Below, piece by piece: positions 5,209-27,425 of a stretch of DNA of 28,038 nt. Each line of letters begins with the position of its first letter. Position 1 is the stretch's first letter. Position numbers and translations under genes: made by a program. Origin of the DNA: a virus. The notes beneath the pieces were generated by a model. The model saw nothing but the letters and a program-made list of their open reading frames with translations, searched no databases and was not told the DNA's origin. Where the stretch lies: positions 1 through 28,038 of the IMG/VR virus record IMGVR_UViG_3300035205_001601; one strand, given 5' to 3'.

Positions 5209-5295
5209 TGGCTCCGGGGGGTGGGATCGAACCACCACGTCATTTCAGACACCAGATAAACGGTCTGGCATGTCTACCAATTCCATCACCCCGGA
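5209..5295 (-). tRNA. tRNA with long variable arm and apparent GUU (Asn) anticodon
   Basis: The 87-nt cloverleaf is complete. Its 7-bp acceptor is perfect (TCCGGGG with CCCCGGA), with discriminator G and encoded CCA. The D arm is ATG...CAT with a GG-containing loop. The anticodon stem is CCAGA/TCTGG with loop CCGTTTA. The variable arm has 15 nt with a GTC/GAC stem, and the T arm is GGTGG-TTCGATC-CCACC. The long arm and D loop are Leu/Ser-like, but the loop centre reads GTT, which pairs with Asn codons; no Leu, Ser or Tyr anticodon fits. Position 33 is C instead of the near-universal U. The gene begins 7 nt after the stop of the synthetase-like gene, so both are probably co-transcribed. The amino-acid identity is uncertain. 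Confidence 0.85.
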
Positions 5296-5302
5296 TCATT
5301 TT

Positions 5303-6118
5303 TTATCCAACTACATCAAATGCTCGTATAAGTCGTGTCATTCCAATACCGCCGCCTGTGCGAGGTATGAAATCATAACTTAAAAACTCTTCAAGTTCTG
5401 CTTCTACACGTTCTTTACCAAACTGACCATATAGTAAATCTGCATACATTCCATTACTGATTGTATGGAATTGATCACGCATTTCGTCTGTATCTGAACT
5501 ACGTTCTGCACTACCTATTGTTTCCTGGCCTGCAATTATAACATCTATTTTTGCGGCTGTACCATCACCATTTTGTTTCATATTCCAAAAAGGCGATGTA
5601 TGATTTGGAAAGTTCATTATCATTTGAGCATTACCATATTTTCCGTACATAGCATTTTCTTCTGCATGTGTTAATTCTTCAACGTTGAACTCTATTGCCC
5701 AATCTTCGTAGTTTTTATCTACTATACTACCAAAACCTAAATATGCACATAATTCTATTTCCATTTTATATAAATCATTCATATTGCCAGGCATTTCAAA
5801 TTCAAACATTGGAAATATTAAATCATGTCTACCTTCTATTATATTTGGTTCTTGTCTATAAGATGTGGAGACACAAAAAAAGCCAGGTACTTCTGGCTTT
5901 GATAATAATTCATGTTCTAACCACATTTGGCCTGTTTGTGGAAGCGGCCAAACATTACCGGCGTAATTATAAGTTGAAACTGTTGTTGGATCTTCGCATG
6001 CCGCTAATATGCTTAATCTGTTTTGTGTGTGTACTTCCAAGAAACCTTTTTCTAAAAAAAAGGACCTTAATAGGCCCGTTGCTTCAGTAAATTTTCTTGG
6101 ATCAATTAACTGCGTCAT
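5303..6118 (-). CDS. Class IIb aminoacyl-tRNA synthetase-like enzyme (Asn/Asp type), no anticodon domain
   Basis: 271 residues forming a class II synthetase catalytic core. Motif 1 is near residues 20-35 (EKGFLEVHT). Motif 2 has Arg88-x-Glu90 followed by FPMFEFEM. The amino-acid pocket region GQETIGSAER (197-206) resembles the E-x-x-G-G-S-x-R of AsnRS. Motif 3 is GGGIGMTR with Arg262. The N-terminal OB-fold anticodon-binding domain of AsnRS/AspRS/LysRS is absent, so the protein is much shorter than a normal AsnRS (about 430-470 residues). Two readings are possible: it charges the adjacent tRNA, or, like archaeal AsnRS paralogues lacking the anticodon domain, it makes asparagine. SD AAGGAG precedes the ATG; a CATAAATA box lies 50 nt upstream. 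Confidence 0.85.
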   Translation of the reverse strand: MTQLIDPRKFTEATGLLRSFFLEKGFLEVHTQNRLSILAACEDPTTVSTYNYAGNVWPLPQTGQMWLEHELLSKPEVPGFFCVSTSYRQEPNIIEGRHDLIFPMFEFEMPGNMNDLYKMEIELCAYLGFGSIVDKNYEDWAIEFNVEELTHAEENAMYGKYGNAQMIMNFPNHTSPFWNMKQNGDGTAAKIDVIIAGQETIGSAERSSDTDEMRDQFHTISNGMYADLLYGQFGKERVEAELEEFLSYDFIPRTGGGIGMTRLIRAFDVVG

Positions 6119-13331: not shown

Positions 13332-14603
13332 TTAAAACTGATCTTCTTCGGTGGACCCCGATAATGCTGTAGTCGAAGATGATCCGCCCGAAACTGCTTT
13401 AGATACTTCATCAAAGTAACCTGCGCCTACTTCTCGCTGGTGTTTAGTAGCAGTATATCCATCAATTTCAGCCGCAAATTCTTTATCTTGCAGTTCACAG
13501 AACGCAGGCATTCCTACTTTATTGTATTTGGATGCTAGATCAAACATGTTATAATTTAAACTATGGAAGCCAGCAAGTGTAATAAATTGATATTTGTATC
13601 CCATTTCGCCTATTGCATCTTGAAAATTTACAATGTCTTTCTCATCTAAATTTGCTCTCCAATTAAACGAAGGAGAACAATTATATGCTAACATTTGATT
13701 TGGATACTCTTTGCGAATTGTTTCTGCAAACTTTTGTGCTTGATCTAAATTTGGCTTAGATGTTTCCATCCAAAGTAAATCACAATATGGAGCAAAGGCA
13801 AGTCCTCTAGCAACACATCGTTCAAAAGACTGTGCAGGATCTAAACGATAAAAACCTTCCTCTGTTCTATCGTCACTGATAAATGGATGATCGCGTTCGT
13901 CTATATTACTTGTTAATAGTGTAGCACTTTCTGCGTCTGTACGAGCAACAATAACAGTAGGTACTCGCATAACATCTGCCGCAAGTCTTGCCGCGTTTAA
14001 GTTCCTTATATGCTGTTGCACAGGAATTAAAACTTTACCGCCCATATGTCCGCATTTCTTTTCAGATGCTAATTGATCTTCAAAATGGACACCAGCGGCT
14101 CCGGCTTCTATATATGCTTTAGTAATTTCAAATGCATTTAGTGCTCCGCCAAATCCTGCTTCACAGTCTGCTACAATAGGAGCAAACCAAAATGTATCGT
14201 CATCTTCTAATTGCCCTATTTGATCTGAACGCTCAAATGCATTGTTAATCTTTTTTACTAATTCGGGTCCGCTATTAGCGGGGTATAAACTTTGATCTGG
14301 ATACGTAGTTCCTGCTGTGTTATTATCAGCGGCTACTTGCCACCCCGACAGGTATATTGATTGTAATCCAGCTCGTACCATCTGAACCGCCTGATTGCCA
14401 GTAACTGCACCTAATGCTCGCACGAATGGTTCAAAGTTTATATAATCCCATAAGTTCTCTGCACCCATGTGGGCAAGAGTATGTTTTATATCTATGGAAC
14501 TAGATAAACGATAAACATCATTAATTGAATAGTCGCGTTTCACGTTACTAAAACGCTTATGGTGAGTACGGACGAGGCGGGCAAATTCTTCATGTGTGCC
14601 CAT
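13332..14603 (-). CDS. aceA: Isocitrate lyase
   Basis: 423 residues, close to the usual bacterial length (about 430). The signature KKCGH is at 182-186 with catalytic Cys184 in the loop [12 protein letters not shown]. The Mg-binding segment ADCEAGFGG (Asp146, Glu148) and downstream family motifs NCSPSFNW and a C-terminal [13 protein letters not shown] are all intact. It cleaves isocitrate to succinate and glyoxylate, the first step of the glyoxylate shunt. No malate synthase is in the window. A host-derived auxiliary metabolic gene is the likely explanation. SD AGGAG lies before the ATG, and a late-type box 37 nt upstream, so expression appears late. Base composition is not obviously different from neighbours. 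Confidence 0.97.
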
Positions 14604-15438: not shown

Positions 15439-17659
15439 TTACTTTTACTTCATCTGTTTCTAAATCAATGCCTATAACAATTTCACAATCCCGCACATCG
15501 TTATAAACTATTAGTTTACTAATTGGCTTTTTAATTTTTGTATCTATTAACCTTTTCATAGGCCTTGCACCCATAGTAGGAGTAAATCCTTTTTTACATA
15601 GCCAATCTAATAAATCCTTTTGCGGTACTAATGTAATATGTCGTGGTTTTAATAACTCTTCAACTTCATTTAAGAATTTAGTAGTAATTTTTGAAATAAA
15701 CTTTTCGTCTAGTTTATTAAAATTAACAGTAGCATCTAGTCTGTTGCGAAACTCTGGTGCAAAAAACTTTTTAACAGCAACACCTGCGGCATGATCATCT
15801 GTTCCACCTGCAAATCCAATTGCTACTTTTTCACTGTCCGATGCTCCTAAATTAGATGTCATTATTAAGATAATGTTTTTAGTTGATATAGTTTTTCCAT
15901 TACTAGATGTCACAACACCACTATCCATTATTTGTAGTAATATATTCAAGACATCTTGGTGTGCTTTTTCTACTTCATCTAATAGCAATACACAATTAGG
16001 ATTATTTTCTAGTTCATTAATAAGTTTACCACTTCCTGATCCACCATCTTCATATCCCACATAGCCGGGAGGTGATCCTATCAACTTTGCTATTGAATGT
16101 CTTTCTTGATATTCACTCATATCAAAGCGGACAAGTTTTAATGCTAAATTATCAGCAAGTTGTTTTGCTGTTTCTGTTTTACCTACACCAGTAGGTCCTG
16201 TAAATAAAAATGAACCAATTGGCTTTTCAGGATCTTTTAATCCTGCTTGTGATATATGAATAGCATCTGTTAATTTTTCAATTGCTTCATCTTGCCCAAA
16301 TACTTTGTGTTTAATTTTTTCATCTATGTTTATTACAGCACTAGAACTTGTTTCTGTTGTATTAATTATTTCTATAGGAATACGAGTTTGGTGTGCTACT
16401 TCTCGTTTAATGTCTATATCTTCTATATGTGTTTTACGTTCTGTTATAGGTAGTATACGTTGTCTGGCCAATGCACTATCTATTAAATCTAATGCTTTAT
16501 CTGGCAGATATTTATTCATCATATGCTTAACACTTAATTCTACCGCTGTTTTTATCGACTTACGTTCAATAGTAATGCCGTGAAAGTCTTCATAATATGA
16601 AGCCAATCCTTCTATAATTTTAATAGTGTCTTCGGTACTAGGTTGATGTATGTCTAATTTTGTAAAACGTCTCACTAATGCAGAATCTTTTTCAAAGTAC
16701 TTTCTATAATCTTCATGTGTGGTTGCACCTATACAGTGTAGTTTTCCTTTTTCTAATGCAGGCTTTAACATATTAGCAACATCCATACTACCATTACCAC
16801 CAGTACCTGCTCCCATTATCATATGTATTTCGTCAATGAATAAAATACATTTTTCCATGTTTTGTAATATGTCCAATACTGCTTTAAGGCGTTCTTCTAA
16901 ATCACCACGATATTTTGTTCCTGCTAATAAAGCACCAATGTCTAATAGATAAACTGTATTACCTTTTACTGTATCGGGTACTTGGTCTTCGGATATAAGT
17001 TTTGCTAATCCTTCTGCCATTGCAGTTTTACCTACACCTGCTTCACCTACCATTATTACATTATTTTTCTTTCGTCGTGCAAGGACATGAAGTAATTCAT
17101 GTAGTTCCTTTTCTCTTCCTATAATGGGATCTATTTTTCCCTCTGTTGCTTGTGTATTTAAATTTACACAAAATTCTTCTAATACTTTTTCTGCATCCAT
17201 CCCGTCAATGCCAGAAACTTGGTATTCATCAATAAGTTGTTGCTGGATTAATTTAATAATGCTATCACGATCCACTCCATGCATTGCCAAAAAATAATAT
17301 GCATGACTTTGTCGTTCTGCTAATATACTTAAAAATAGATCCTTTGCTTGAATGGCTTGTCTTCTATTAAACAATGCTTGAGTAAATGCCCTATTAAATG
17401 TTCTTTCTAAGGTTGATGTTTTACGAGGCTCAACAGGGCCAGGAACCATAATTTCATTCATATTATTATTAACATGTTCAACTATAGATATACGAACTTC
17501 TTCAGGATTAGGACCAACACTTCCTACTATATGTTTAACTTCATCTTCTTCTAATAGAACAACCAACAGGTGTTCTATTGTTACATATTCGTGATTAAGA
17601 GATTTGGCTAAACCAAATGCTTTACTTATGATATGTTCTACTTTATCGTGATCAGGCAT
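15419..17659 (-). CDS. clpA: ClpA-type AAA+ unfoldase of the Clp protease
   Basis: 746 residues, full length for ClpA. There is an N-domain (residues about 1-150) with the Clp-N pattern, then two AAA+ modules: first Walker A GEAGVGKT (205-212) and Walker B LFIDEIH (273-279); second Walker A GPTGVGKT (488-495) and Walker B LLLDEVE (558-564). There is no long coiled-coil insert, which separates it from ClpB. The IGF tripeptide at 614-616 corresponds to the loop that docks ClpA on ClpP, and a complete ClpP is encoded at 25456-26061. The start overlaps deformylase by 8 nt. ClpA would unfold substrates for ClpP degradation; phage or host targets are unknown. Confidence 0.95.
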   Translation of the reverse strand: MPDHDKVEHIISKAFGLAKSLNHEYVTIEHLLVVLLEEDEVKHIVGSVGPNPEEVRISIVEHVNNNMNEIMVPGPVEPRKTSTLERTFNRAFTQALFNRRQAIQAKDLFLSILAERQSHAYYFLAMHGVDRDSIIKLIQQQLIDEYQVSGIDGMDAEKVLEEFCVNLNTQATEGKIDPIIGREKELHELLHVLARRKKNNVIMVGEAGVGKTAMAEGLAKLISEDQVPDTVKGNTVYLLDIGALLAGTKYRGDLEERLKAVLDILQNMEKCILFIDEIHMIMGAGTGGNGSMDVANMLKPALEKGKLHCIGATTHEDYRKYFEKDSALVRRFTKLDIHQPSTEDTIKIIEGLASYYEDFHGITIERKSIKTAVELSVKHMMNKYLPDKALDLIDSALARQRILPITERKTHIEDIDIKREVAHQTRIPIEIINTTETSSSAVINIDEKIKHKVFGQDEAIEKLTDAIHISQAGLKDPEKPIGSFLFTGPTGVGKTETAKQLADNLALKLVRFDMSEYQERHSIAKLIGSPPGYVGYEDGGSGSGKLINELENNPNCVLLLDEVEKAHQDVLNILLQIMDSGVVTSSNGKTISTKNIILIMTSNLGASDSEKVAIGFAGGTDDHAAGVAVKKFFAPEFRNRLDATVNFNKLDEKFISKITTKFLNEVEELLKPRHITLVPQKDLLDWLCKKGFTPTMGARPMKRLIDTKIKKPISKLIVYNDVRDCEIVIGIDLETDEVKVNAKQTG

Positions 17660-24890: not shown

Positions 24891-25475
24891 TTATTTTGCT
24901 AATTTGCGGTAACAGTTTTGTATACCGACTACTTGCCTCCAACAATCCATTAATGCATGATGCTTACTTGCTTCGGGCATTTCCGGATCTGCTAAAGCAT
25001 ATATTGTTCTACAATCTCGTATTTCCCAAAACTTCCACGGATTGCCTCTACTTAATTTTCTATTATAATCCTCTATTATCATTATGTCAAATATAGAACC
25101 ATTTGACCAAAATGCTTTTGCACCAAAACACCATTTATGAAAATCTGTTAAAACAGTTTCTATTGAATGTCTATTGTCTTGTGCAAATGCTTCTTCTCTA
25201 ATTATGTCGTCTTGTTCTGCCCACCAATCAATTGTGTGGTCATCTATTACTTGACCTAAGTCGACACAACTTTCTAAATCAATACGCCTATAAAAACTAT
25301 GTTTACTATTAAATATTCGTTCTTCTGTTTCTTTCCTAGCATCATTACAAGGATCAAATTTCATTGCCGCGAACGTTAAAATTACTGCATTAGGTTTAGT
25401 TGACAATGTTTCCAAGTCAACCATAACATGCAATTCGCCTGTTCGGTGCGTAGTATTAGTCACCAGGAAGTTCAC
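24891..25475 (-). CDS. DEDD-type 3'-5' exonuclease (DexA-like)
   Basis: 194 residues from a GTG at 25475, or 177 from the ATG at 25424 (MVDLETL). The first gives a 20-nt overlap with clpP, and the second starts at the catalytic strand, so the start is uncertain. The catalytic pattern is that of DEDD exonucleases: VMVDLETL with Asp and Glu, a middle [10 protein letters not shown] with Asp, and [11 protein letters not shown] with His and Asp. The T4 protein DexA has the same motif order. It probably degrades single-stranded nucleic acid, but the substrate cannot be told. Confidence 0.85.
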
Positions 25476-26061
25476 GACTTTCCACTATTTTATCTGCTAA
25501 TCCATAATTAACAGATTCTTGTGCTGTTAAAAAATTATCTCTGTCCATATCATTAATTAATTCTTGATACAATTTACCTTTCGTATTATGCTTTATATAA
25601 ATTTGAGTTAATTCTTCTTTTACTCTGAGTAATTCTTTTGTACGAATTTCAACATCTGATGCTTGTCCACTTGCTCCGCCCATTGGTTGATGTATCATGT
25701 GTCTACTATGCGGTAATATCCAACGTTTATCAGGAGCGCCTGCTTGTGCTAACAGAGACCCCATCGATGCCGCATGGCCCATAACAATGGTACATATATC
25801 TGGTGCGATAAATTGCATTGTATCGTATATTGCCATTCCTGCTGTAACAGTTCCCCCAGGAGAATTTATATACATAAAAATGTCTTTTTCTGCATTCTCA
25901 CTTTCAAGAAACAATAATTGACTCACTGTTAAACTTGCACAATGATCTTCTATTTCATTGTCTAACATTATAATACGGTCTTTAAGCAGTCGACTATATA
26001 TATCGTACGATCGCTCTCCTTTGTCTGTTTGTTCTATTACAATTGGTACTAGATTTGCCAT
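25456..26061 (-). CDS. clpP: ClpP serine protease
   Basis: 201 residues, full length, starting [12 protein letters not shown], like the mature bacterial ClpP N-terminus. The catalytic triad is intact by alignment in memory with E. coli: Ser99 in GHAASMG, His124 in MIHQP, Asp175 in DRDNF. It forms the tetradecameric peptidase chamber that partners ClpA or ClpX; ClpA is encoded at 15419-17659 and keeps an IGF docking loop. It has no propeptide. No SD is present: a sigma70 promoter abuts the start, so a leaderless transcript is likely. Its stop overlaps the exonuclease start region. Confidence 0.96.
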
Positions 26062-26067
26062 ATCTAT

Positions 26068-26096
26068 ATAATACGCTATTTTTCCTATATTGTCAA
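26068..26096 (-). promoter_or_regulatory. Sigma70 promoter (TTGACA-17-TATTAT) at a leaderless start
   Basis: Perfect TTGACA (26091-26096) and TATTAT (26068-26073, one mismatch) are separated by 17 nt on the minus strand. The clpP ATG lies 6 nt after the -10 box, so transcription should begin at or very near the ATG. Confidence 0.8.
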
Positions 26097-26111
26097 GTCA
26101 AAAAAAAGGAA

Positions 26112-26275
26112 GGATAGTGGGTAGCCAGGATTTCGCCCGTCGCAACATCGGATCACCTATACAGTGACACATTGGACCACCATTCTCGCACCTGCAGAGT
26201 GGAGAACGGAGACACTGTCCGCACAACTTTTCCACGAGGTCTGGTACCTACCAGCAAGGTCCATACCCACTATCC
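26112..26275 (-). ncRNA. Structured RNA candidate closed by a 12-bp stem
   Basis: A perfect 12-bp inverted repeat pairs 26112-26123 with 26264-26275 (13 bp counting the flanking A-T). Inside, TGGACC and GGTCCA (26258-26263 with 26173-26178) form a second stem stacked next to it, and shorter hairpins follow (CTGGT/ACCAG; an 8-bp TTCTCCAC/GTGCGAGAA stem with a bulge; TCAC/GTGA). GC content is higher than surroundings, and no open frame crosses most of it. On the minus strand the closing stem is followed by TTCC and eight T residues, resembling a termination tail. I do not recognise the family; tRNA and tmRNA were checked. The strand is preferred, not proven. Confidence 0.65.
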
Positions 26276-26443
26276 TATATATTTTTGAAAAAACCATTCA
26301 GTATTAAAATGTGATGCTATCTTAAGACAAGTCTTATAAGAACCATGATATATGTTTAATCCAGTTTCTGTATTATATACAATGTGTTCCTTACCAATGC
26401 CTTTCTTTATTAGAAAAGGACAATCACTTGTTCTGTTGTTCAT
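26270..26443 (-). CDS. 57-residue small protein
   Basis: The ATG at 26443 overlaps the upstream TGA (ATGA), and the frame runs to a TAG at 26270-26272 inside the RNA candidate's closing stem. The product begins MNNRTSDCPFLIKKGIGKEH, is basic, has two Cys residues (8 and 39) and ends FNTEWFFQKYIG. It shows no recognised motif. Exact coupling to the upstream gene supports translation. Overlap of its stop with the RNA stem means read-through transcripts would carry both. Confidence 0.65.
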   Translation of the reverse strand: MNNRTSDCPFLIKKGIGKEHIVYNTETGLNIYHGSYKTCLKIASHFNTEWFFQKYIG

Positions 26444-26769
26444 TCTAAATGACTTACCATTGTTTCTGTGCGTTGAAGTGCTGGTGTGCCAATATCAGCA
26501 AACTCACCATCTTCAAATTTATAATAAAGATCATATCTTCCATCTGATGGAAGATTAAATTTGTGTACTTCTGTGCCAGGTATCCATTGTATAGAATAAA
26601 CATCCTTGCCCGGGCAAAAGTCGTATTCGGCTTCTGACTGTAAGTTGGTGCCACTTGTTACTTGTTTACCCCAAGCCAACATTTCTTCTATTACGATAGA
26701 TGAATCCCCCGGTATTGTTTCGAGGTAGGTTTCAACATCTTCCCATGTCTCACATATATTACAATTCAT
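26440..26769 (-). CDS. Unknown 109-residue acidic protein
   Basis: 109 residues. MNCNICETWEDVETYLETIP opens with a Cys-x2-Cys pair (Cys3, Cys6), but no second pair follows, so metal binding is doubtful. The C-terminus reads DGRYDLYYKFEDGEFADIG, an alternation typical of a beta hairpin. Its start overlaps the upstream gene by 11 nt. A different-frame open stretch at 26454-26654 is a shadow. Function unknown; the gene belongs to a run of small overlapping genes typical of phage early or accessory regions. Confidence 0.7.
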   Translation of the reverse strand: MNCNICETWEDVETYLETIPGDSSIVIEEMLAWGKQVTSGTNLQSEAEYDFCPGKDVYSIQWIPGTEVHKFNLPSDGRYDLYYKFEDGEFADIGTPALQRTETMVSHLE

Positions 26770-27309: not shown

Positions 27310-27425
27310 ATCATACTCCTATAGTAGTTAAATTCGCGGGGGCGATTTTTAGGAATTTTCGGTCTGCCCCAGGACCTCCGCTACGGCTGAGGTTTTTTGT
27401 TATTGTGTCCTTCTGCGTATGCACC
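27310..27425 (+). terminator. Noncoding gap with plus-strand hairpin and U-tract
   Basis: On the plus strand GGGGC...GCCCC encloses CGA...TCG, and then CCTCcGCtacGGctGAGG is followed by TTTTTT. The second hairpin with its U-tract resembles an intrinsic terminator, but no plus-strand gene feeds it, so it may terminate a plus-strand transcript not visible here or be part of a small RNA. On the minus strand the stretch precedes the start at 27309 and contains no open frame. Confidence 0.4.

Follow-up and report, generated by a model that had tools for sequence, protein, structure and literature searches.

A conserved GC-rich noncoding element ahead of clpP in a T4-like phage is a candidate phage RNA

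Introduction

What is the GC-rich stretch of 164 nucleotides that lies just before clpP in a T4-like phage, and does it serve as the template of an RNA? Structured noncoding RNAs in the GC-richer intergenic regions of AT-rich genomes are established (PMC8632094), and the initial annotation of this locus proposed an unrecognised structured RNA. We examined the stretch in a 28,038-base virus record, analysed whole and referred to here as the window, and in the only two other phages of its close group found in IMG/VR, L002 (7.1 kb) and L003 (53.5 kb).

Phage context and position of the element

The window encodes a T4-type clamp loader, a GroES-like protein, PhoH, ClpA, ClpP, peptide deformylase, DnaJ, isocitrate lyase and a class II tRNA synthetase, with ClpA, the deformylase and DnaJ named from their own sequences and not by family search. 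The isocitrate lyase (13332-14603) is full-length and 95% identical in L003, and may be an auxiliary metabolic gene that serves the glyoxylate shunt. A tRNA-Asn (GTT) adjoins the class II synthetase, which is of the D/K/N type (5209-6118), and the arrangement suggests a phage-borne Asn charging pair. A 196-aa ORF at 22948-23538 matches the DNA polymerase III alpha NTPase domain over its first part only (Pfam PF07733, profile positions 11-94 of 260); beside the T4-type clamp loader of this phage, it reads as a fragment or a split gene.

The element has a GC content of 54% compared to 35.5% for the window, the top value among all 164-nt stretches of the window and similar to that of the tRNA-Asn (56%), in agreement with its first description as a GC-richer region. 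On the minus strand, a small-gene operon leads into the element, which is followed by TCC, eight T residues, a promoter and clpP (Table 1). A second GC-rich intergenic stretch, at 27324-27396, is 99% identical in L003 and 97% identical in L002, where it is retained even though the gene behind it, of 112 aa, is lost. Its plus strand reads as a pair of hairpins and then TTTTTT, a terminator-like arrangement, and it gave no Rfam match, no phage match and no excess folding stability.

Table 1. Features in and around the GC-rich element (window coordinates)
Feature	Position	Strand	Basis
GC-rich noncoding element (candidate RNA, 164 nt)	26112..26275	-	GC, near-identity in L002, no Rfam match
Closing stem P1, 5' strand	26264..26276	-	Perfect inverted repeat with 26111-26123; pair probability 0.7-1.0, both copies
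Closing stem P1, 3' strand	26111..26123	-	Perfect inverted repeat with 26264-26276; pair probability 0.7-1.0, both copies
6-bp second stem, 5' strand TGGACC	26258..26263	-	Minimum-energy fold of the window copy; weakly supported
6-bp second stem, 3' strand GGTCCA	26173..26178	-	Pairs with 26258-26263; weakly supported
12-bp inner hairpin (element positions 67-96)	26180..26209	-	High predicted probability, both copies
U8 tract, likely transcript 3' end	26100..26107	-	Sequence; U7 in L002
clpP promoter TTGACA-N17-TATTAT	26068..26096	-	Sigma70-like, 11/12; kept in window, L002 and L003
clpP	25456..26061	-	
57-aa ORF	26270..26443	-	Translation and alignment; absent from L002 and L003
109-aa hypothetical gene	26440..26769	-	Upstream; adjoins the element in L002

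Folding of the element

The two ends of the element form a closing stem, P1, which is a perfect inverted repeat of 13 bp (AGGATAGTGGGTA at 26111-26123 with TACCCACTATCCT at 26264-26276), one pair longer than the 12 bp originally reported. Perfect 12-bp inverted repeats with a span of at most 200 nt are expected about 0.8 times per window in first-order Markov sequence. Because only 0.02 are expected when at least six G/C are required as well, the closing stem is unlikely to have arisen by chance, although these expectations use whole-window composition and a local GC-rich background would raise the figure somewhat.

Compared with dinucleotide shuffles, the whole element folds with z = -2.6 on the minus strand and z = -3.6 on the plus strand, the plus strand showing the larger excess, and the tRNA-Asn of the window scores z = -2.43 by the same measure. 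After removal of the closing stem, the interior alone gave z = -0.04 (minus) and z = -0.6 (plus). The excess fold stability comes solely from the closing stem, and the interior is no more stable than shuffled sequence. The designation as a structured RNA is supported for the closing stem only.

Since all of the excess resides in the closing stem, neither the 6-bp second stem nor the small hairpins have support of their own, and the further hairpins of the initial annotation were not borne out. The letters of the proposed second stem (TGGACC/GGTCCA) do exist and pair with a probability of about 0.8 in the window copy, but the stem is missing from the probable pairs of L002, and neither it nor the small hairpins are retained in the best fold of that copy. 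High predicted probability in both copies was limited to the closing stem, the 12-bp hairpin at element positions 67-96 and a 6-bp hairpin at positions 108-124.

Transcript end and clpP promoter

The eight T residues described on the minus strand were found three bases (TCC) beyond the closing stem. Just past this run lies the separate clpP promoter that had been proposed, a sigma70-like sequence conserved in 3/3 of the related phages. With the U-run present in both copies and the promoter behind it, a defined 3' end ahead of the clpP promoter, as first suggested, is probable. An alignment judged by eye contained no conserved promoter directly upstream of the element, and we therefore infer read-through: transcription would come from the upstream small-gene operon and would stop at the U-tract, upstream of clpP's own promoter. 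As to orientation, the U-run and the promoter behind it, both conserved, favour the minus strand, and the modelled fold excess together with one substitution slightly favours the plus strand.

Presence and conservation in related phages

L002 carries the element at the same site before clpP; over 164 nt its copy differs from that of the window by three substitutions, without any indel, and both copies start at the closing stem and finish at the U-run. In L003, which is about 87-90% identical, the element is absent at a clean junction, with clpP and its promoter intact: the upstream gene runs GTGAGTCATTT straight into GACTTGACA, the clpP promoter. No copy was found elsewhere in the 53.5-kb L003 contig, nor did any 12-mer of the element occur there. 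Either a deletion in L003 between short T-runs or a gain in the window and L002 would account for this three-phage pattern. L002 with the element and L003 without it form a natural presence/absence pair for probing function.

The 57-aa ORF upstream is found in the window only. Its start overlaps the end of the 109-aa gene (ATGA), its stop codon falls within the first six bases of the element, and it gave no family match; it was either acquired in the window or lost from both L002 and L003.

Divergence between the window and L002 is 1.8% in the element (3/164) compared to 13% in the 109-aa gene, and clpP gave dS of about 0.35 and dN of 0.02. Measured against clpP third codon positions, conservation of the element is clear (Fisher P = 4e-7). 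Over its first 240 nt, clpP itself has only 9 differences (3.75%), so recent recombination near the element may account for part of its low divergence.

The three L002 substitutions alter the predicted inner fold. Two of them hit both partners of one predicted pair, which is lost. At the third, element position 129, what was a U-A pair becomes a C.A mismatch if the minus strand is read, and G.U, still a pair, if the plus strand is read. None of the three (0/3, in one homologue that is 98% identical) is compensatory.

Searches for relatives of the element

The element matched no Rfam family, tRNA, tmRNA, or known phage or plasmid sequence, so the label "unrecognised" stands. Rfam 15 covariance models at the gathering threshold gave 0 matches across the whole window, and relaxing the cutoff to E<=10 over 25950-26450 brought up nothing but a snoRNA, a chance match that lies outside the element, and no riboswitch. 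ARAGORN, run for tRNA and tmRNA, reported only the tRNA-Asn at 5209-5295 and nothing in the element. Searches by blastn of GenBank phages and plasmids returned just short chance matches. Exact-word scans of IMG/VR (five words) and of species genomes (two words) gave, beyond the L002 contig, only hits that were in unrelated sequence or that reached no more than a chance score with the covariance model described next.

We also built a covariance model, R1, from the two near-identical copies in the window and L002. Nothing convincing was matched in 50 clpP-carrying viral records searched whole, 79 clpP loci, two phages whose clamp loader is 60% identical, or 754 bacterial genomes of two classes (385 + 369); a two-sequence model has little reach, and these are weak negatives. 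The best non-self score (16.6 bits, E 0.011, in L144) fell in a GC-rich stretch and was not taken as real. Neighbour genes were shared at 0/80 clpP loci of other phages, which therefore offer no comparison by synteny. Two short identities were taken as chance: a 9-nt match to the 16S rRNA 3' tail, and 13 nt shared with clpA at 16726-16738, for which we estimate an expectation of about 0.14.

Interpretation and alternative explanations

Together our results point to an element that is orphan, conserved and noncoding. The likeliest reading, to which we give an even chance, is that a phage RNA of about 165-175 nt, read from the minus strand, is formed here as the upstream transcript reaches its 3' end. 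In the mechanism that we propose, the 13-bp closing stem would join and protect both ends, the RNA would persist as a 3'-end-derived small RNA, and the nearly invariant interior would bind in trans to a protein or an RNA of the host or the phage. More tentatively, and with the balance tipping against it, the element could represent a new class of phage-encoded noncoding RNA, so far confined to one small T4-like group, whose almost invariant 138-nt interior acts in trans during infection. Several observations count against a noncoding RNA: the interior lacks excess stability, the substitutions change the inner fold, the plus strand has the larger fold excess, the locus is not a classic intrinsic terminator (T-run 3 nt off, 138-nt loop), and L003 does without the element. 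There is no positive evidence that the element is a ribozyme, serves in packaging as an RNA or acts as a riboswitch for clpP.

The chief rivals of a noncoding RNA are a DNA cassette and a plain terminator region. The first, which we consider unlikely, is that the element is a non-autonomous, MITE-like DNA cassette with 13-bp terminal inverted repeats, recently gained from a GC-richer source and without any role as RNA. The perfection of the repeat, a GC content unlike that of the phage, presence in two close relatives with clean absence from the third, and an interior that folds no better than chance are all in line with such an origin. A target-site duplication, however, was found at neither end in the window or L002, nor at the L003 junction. 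The window, the 53.5-kb L003 contig and the other viral records searched held no second copy, and exact-word scans of viral and bacterial collections produced chance hits only. The shared site of both copies and a conserved U-run outside the repeat also speak against a cassette.

Rather improbable, in our judgement, is a 3'-UTR terminator and insulator, in which the closing stem and U-run end the upstream operon and shield the clpP promoter and the interior matters little. The position between operon end and promoter, retention of the U-run in both copies and confinement of the entire fold excess to the closing stem all suit this function, but it has no need for 138 conserved interior nucleotides, and L003 manages without the element. 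An intrinsic terminator would have a short-loop, GC-rich hairpin with the U-run following at once, whereas here the loop is 138-140 nt long and the U-run stands 3 nt away; the terminator scan did not list the stem and U-run of the element.

That the element is a small or decayed protein-coding gene seems very doubtful. Its longest shared frame (35 aa) is open in the window and in L002, where it extends to 42 aa and starts at an ATGA overlap with the stop codon of the upstream gene, as in coupled genes. Against this, third-position GC in the shared frame is 0.56 compared to 0.16-0.27 in the phage genes, one of the two substitutions inside the frame changes a residue, and a family search found no match for the two small open frames, nor for the 42-aa L002 version, in line with the original view that coding does not explain the region. 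A shorter ORF nearer the 3' end of the element, preceded by a Shine-Dalgarno-like AGGTG, was rejected, as its ATG is ACG in L002.

We give almost no credence to control of clpP by a cis-acting leader of the riboswitch or attenuator type: the element does lie on the 5' side of clpP and has a stem and a U-run, but a near-consensus promoter conserved in all three phages separates the two, no Rfam riboswitch matched even at the relaxed threshold, and a cis role is unlikely because L003, which lacks the element, retains clpP and its promoter.

Comparison with known systems

MITE-like elements resemble this locus in their perfect terminal inverted repeats, a GC content unlike that of the genome, and presence or absence between relatives. 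The element differs from them in having no target duplication or copies elsewhere, in its U-run end, and in occupying one site in both carriers.

As a candidate noncoding RNA, the element is like the orphan and rare structured candidates described in AT-rich genomes and marine metagenomes (PMC2704228, PMC8632094, PMC2864571), which share the conserved GC-rich intergenic setting, a closing stem and the absence of an Rfam match. Those candidates rest on many homologues, whereas ours is represented by two near-identical copies and is at present a good candidate that falls short of a demonstrated RNA class.

The noncoding RNAs of T4-like cyanophages include CFrI, PhotoRC-II, wcaG and a glutamine riboswitch (PMC9602691). 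Unlike these, the element has no Rfam covariance-model match and no recognised antisense target. It shares with them the setting of a noncoding RNA candidate in a T4-like phage with host-like genes, and, if transcribed, it would add an orphan noncoding RNA to a phage group rich in such genes.
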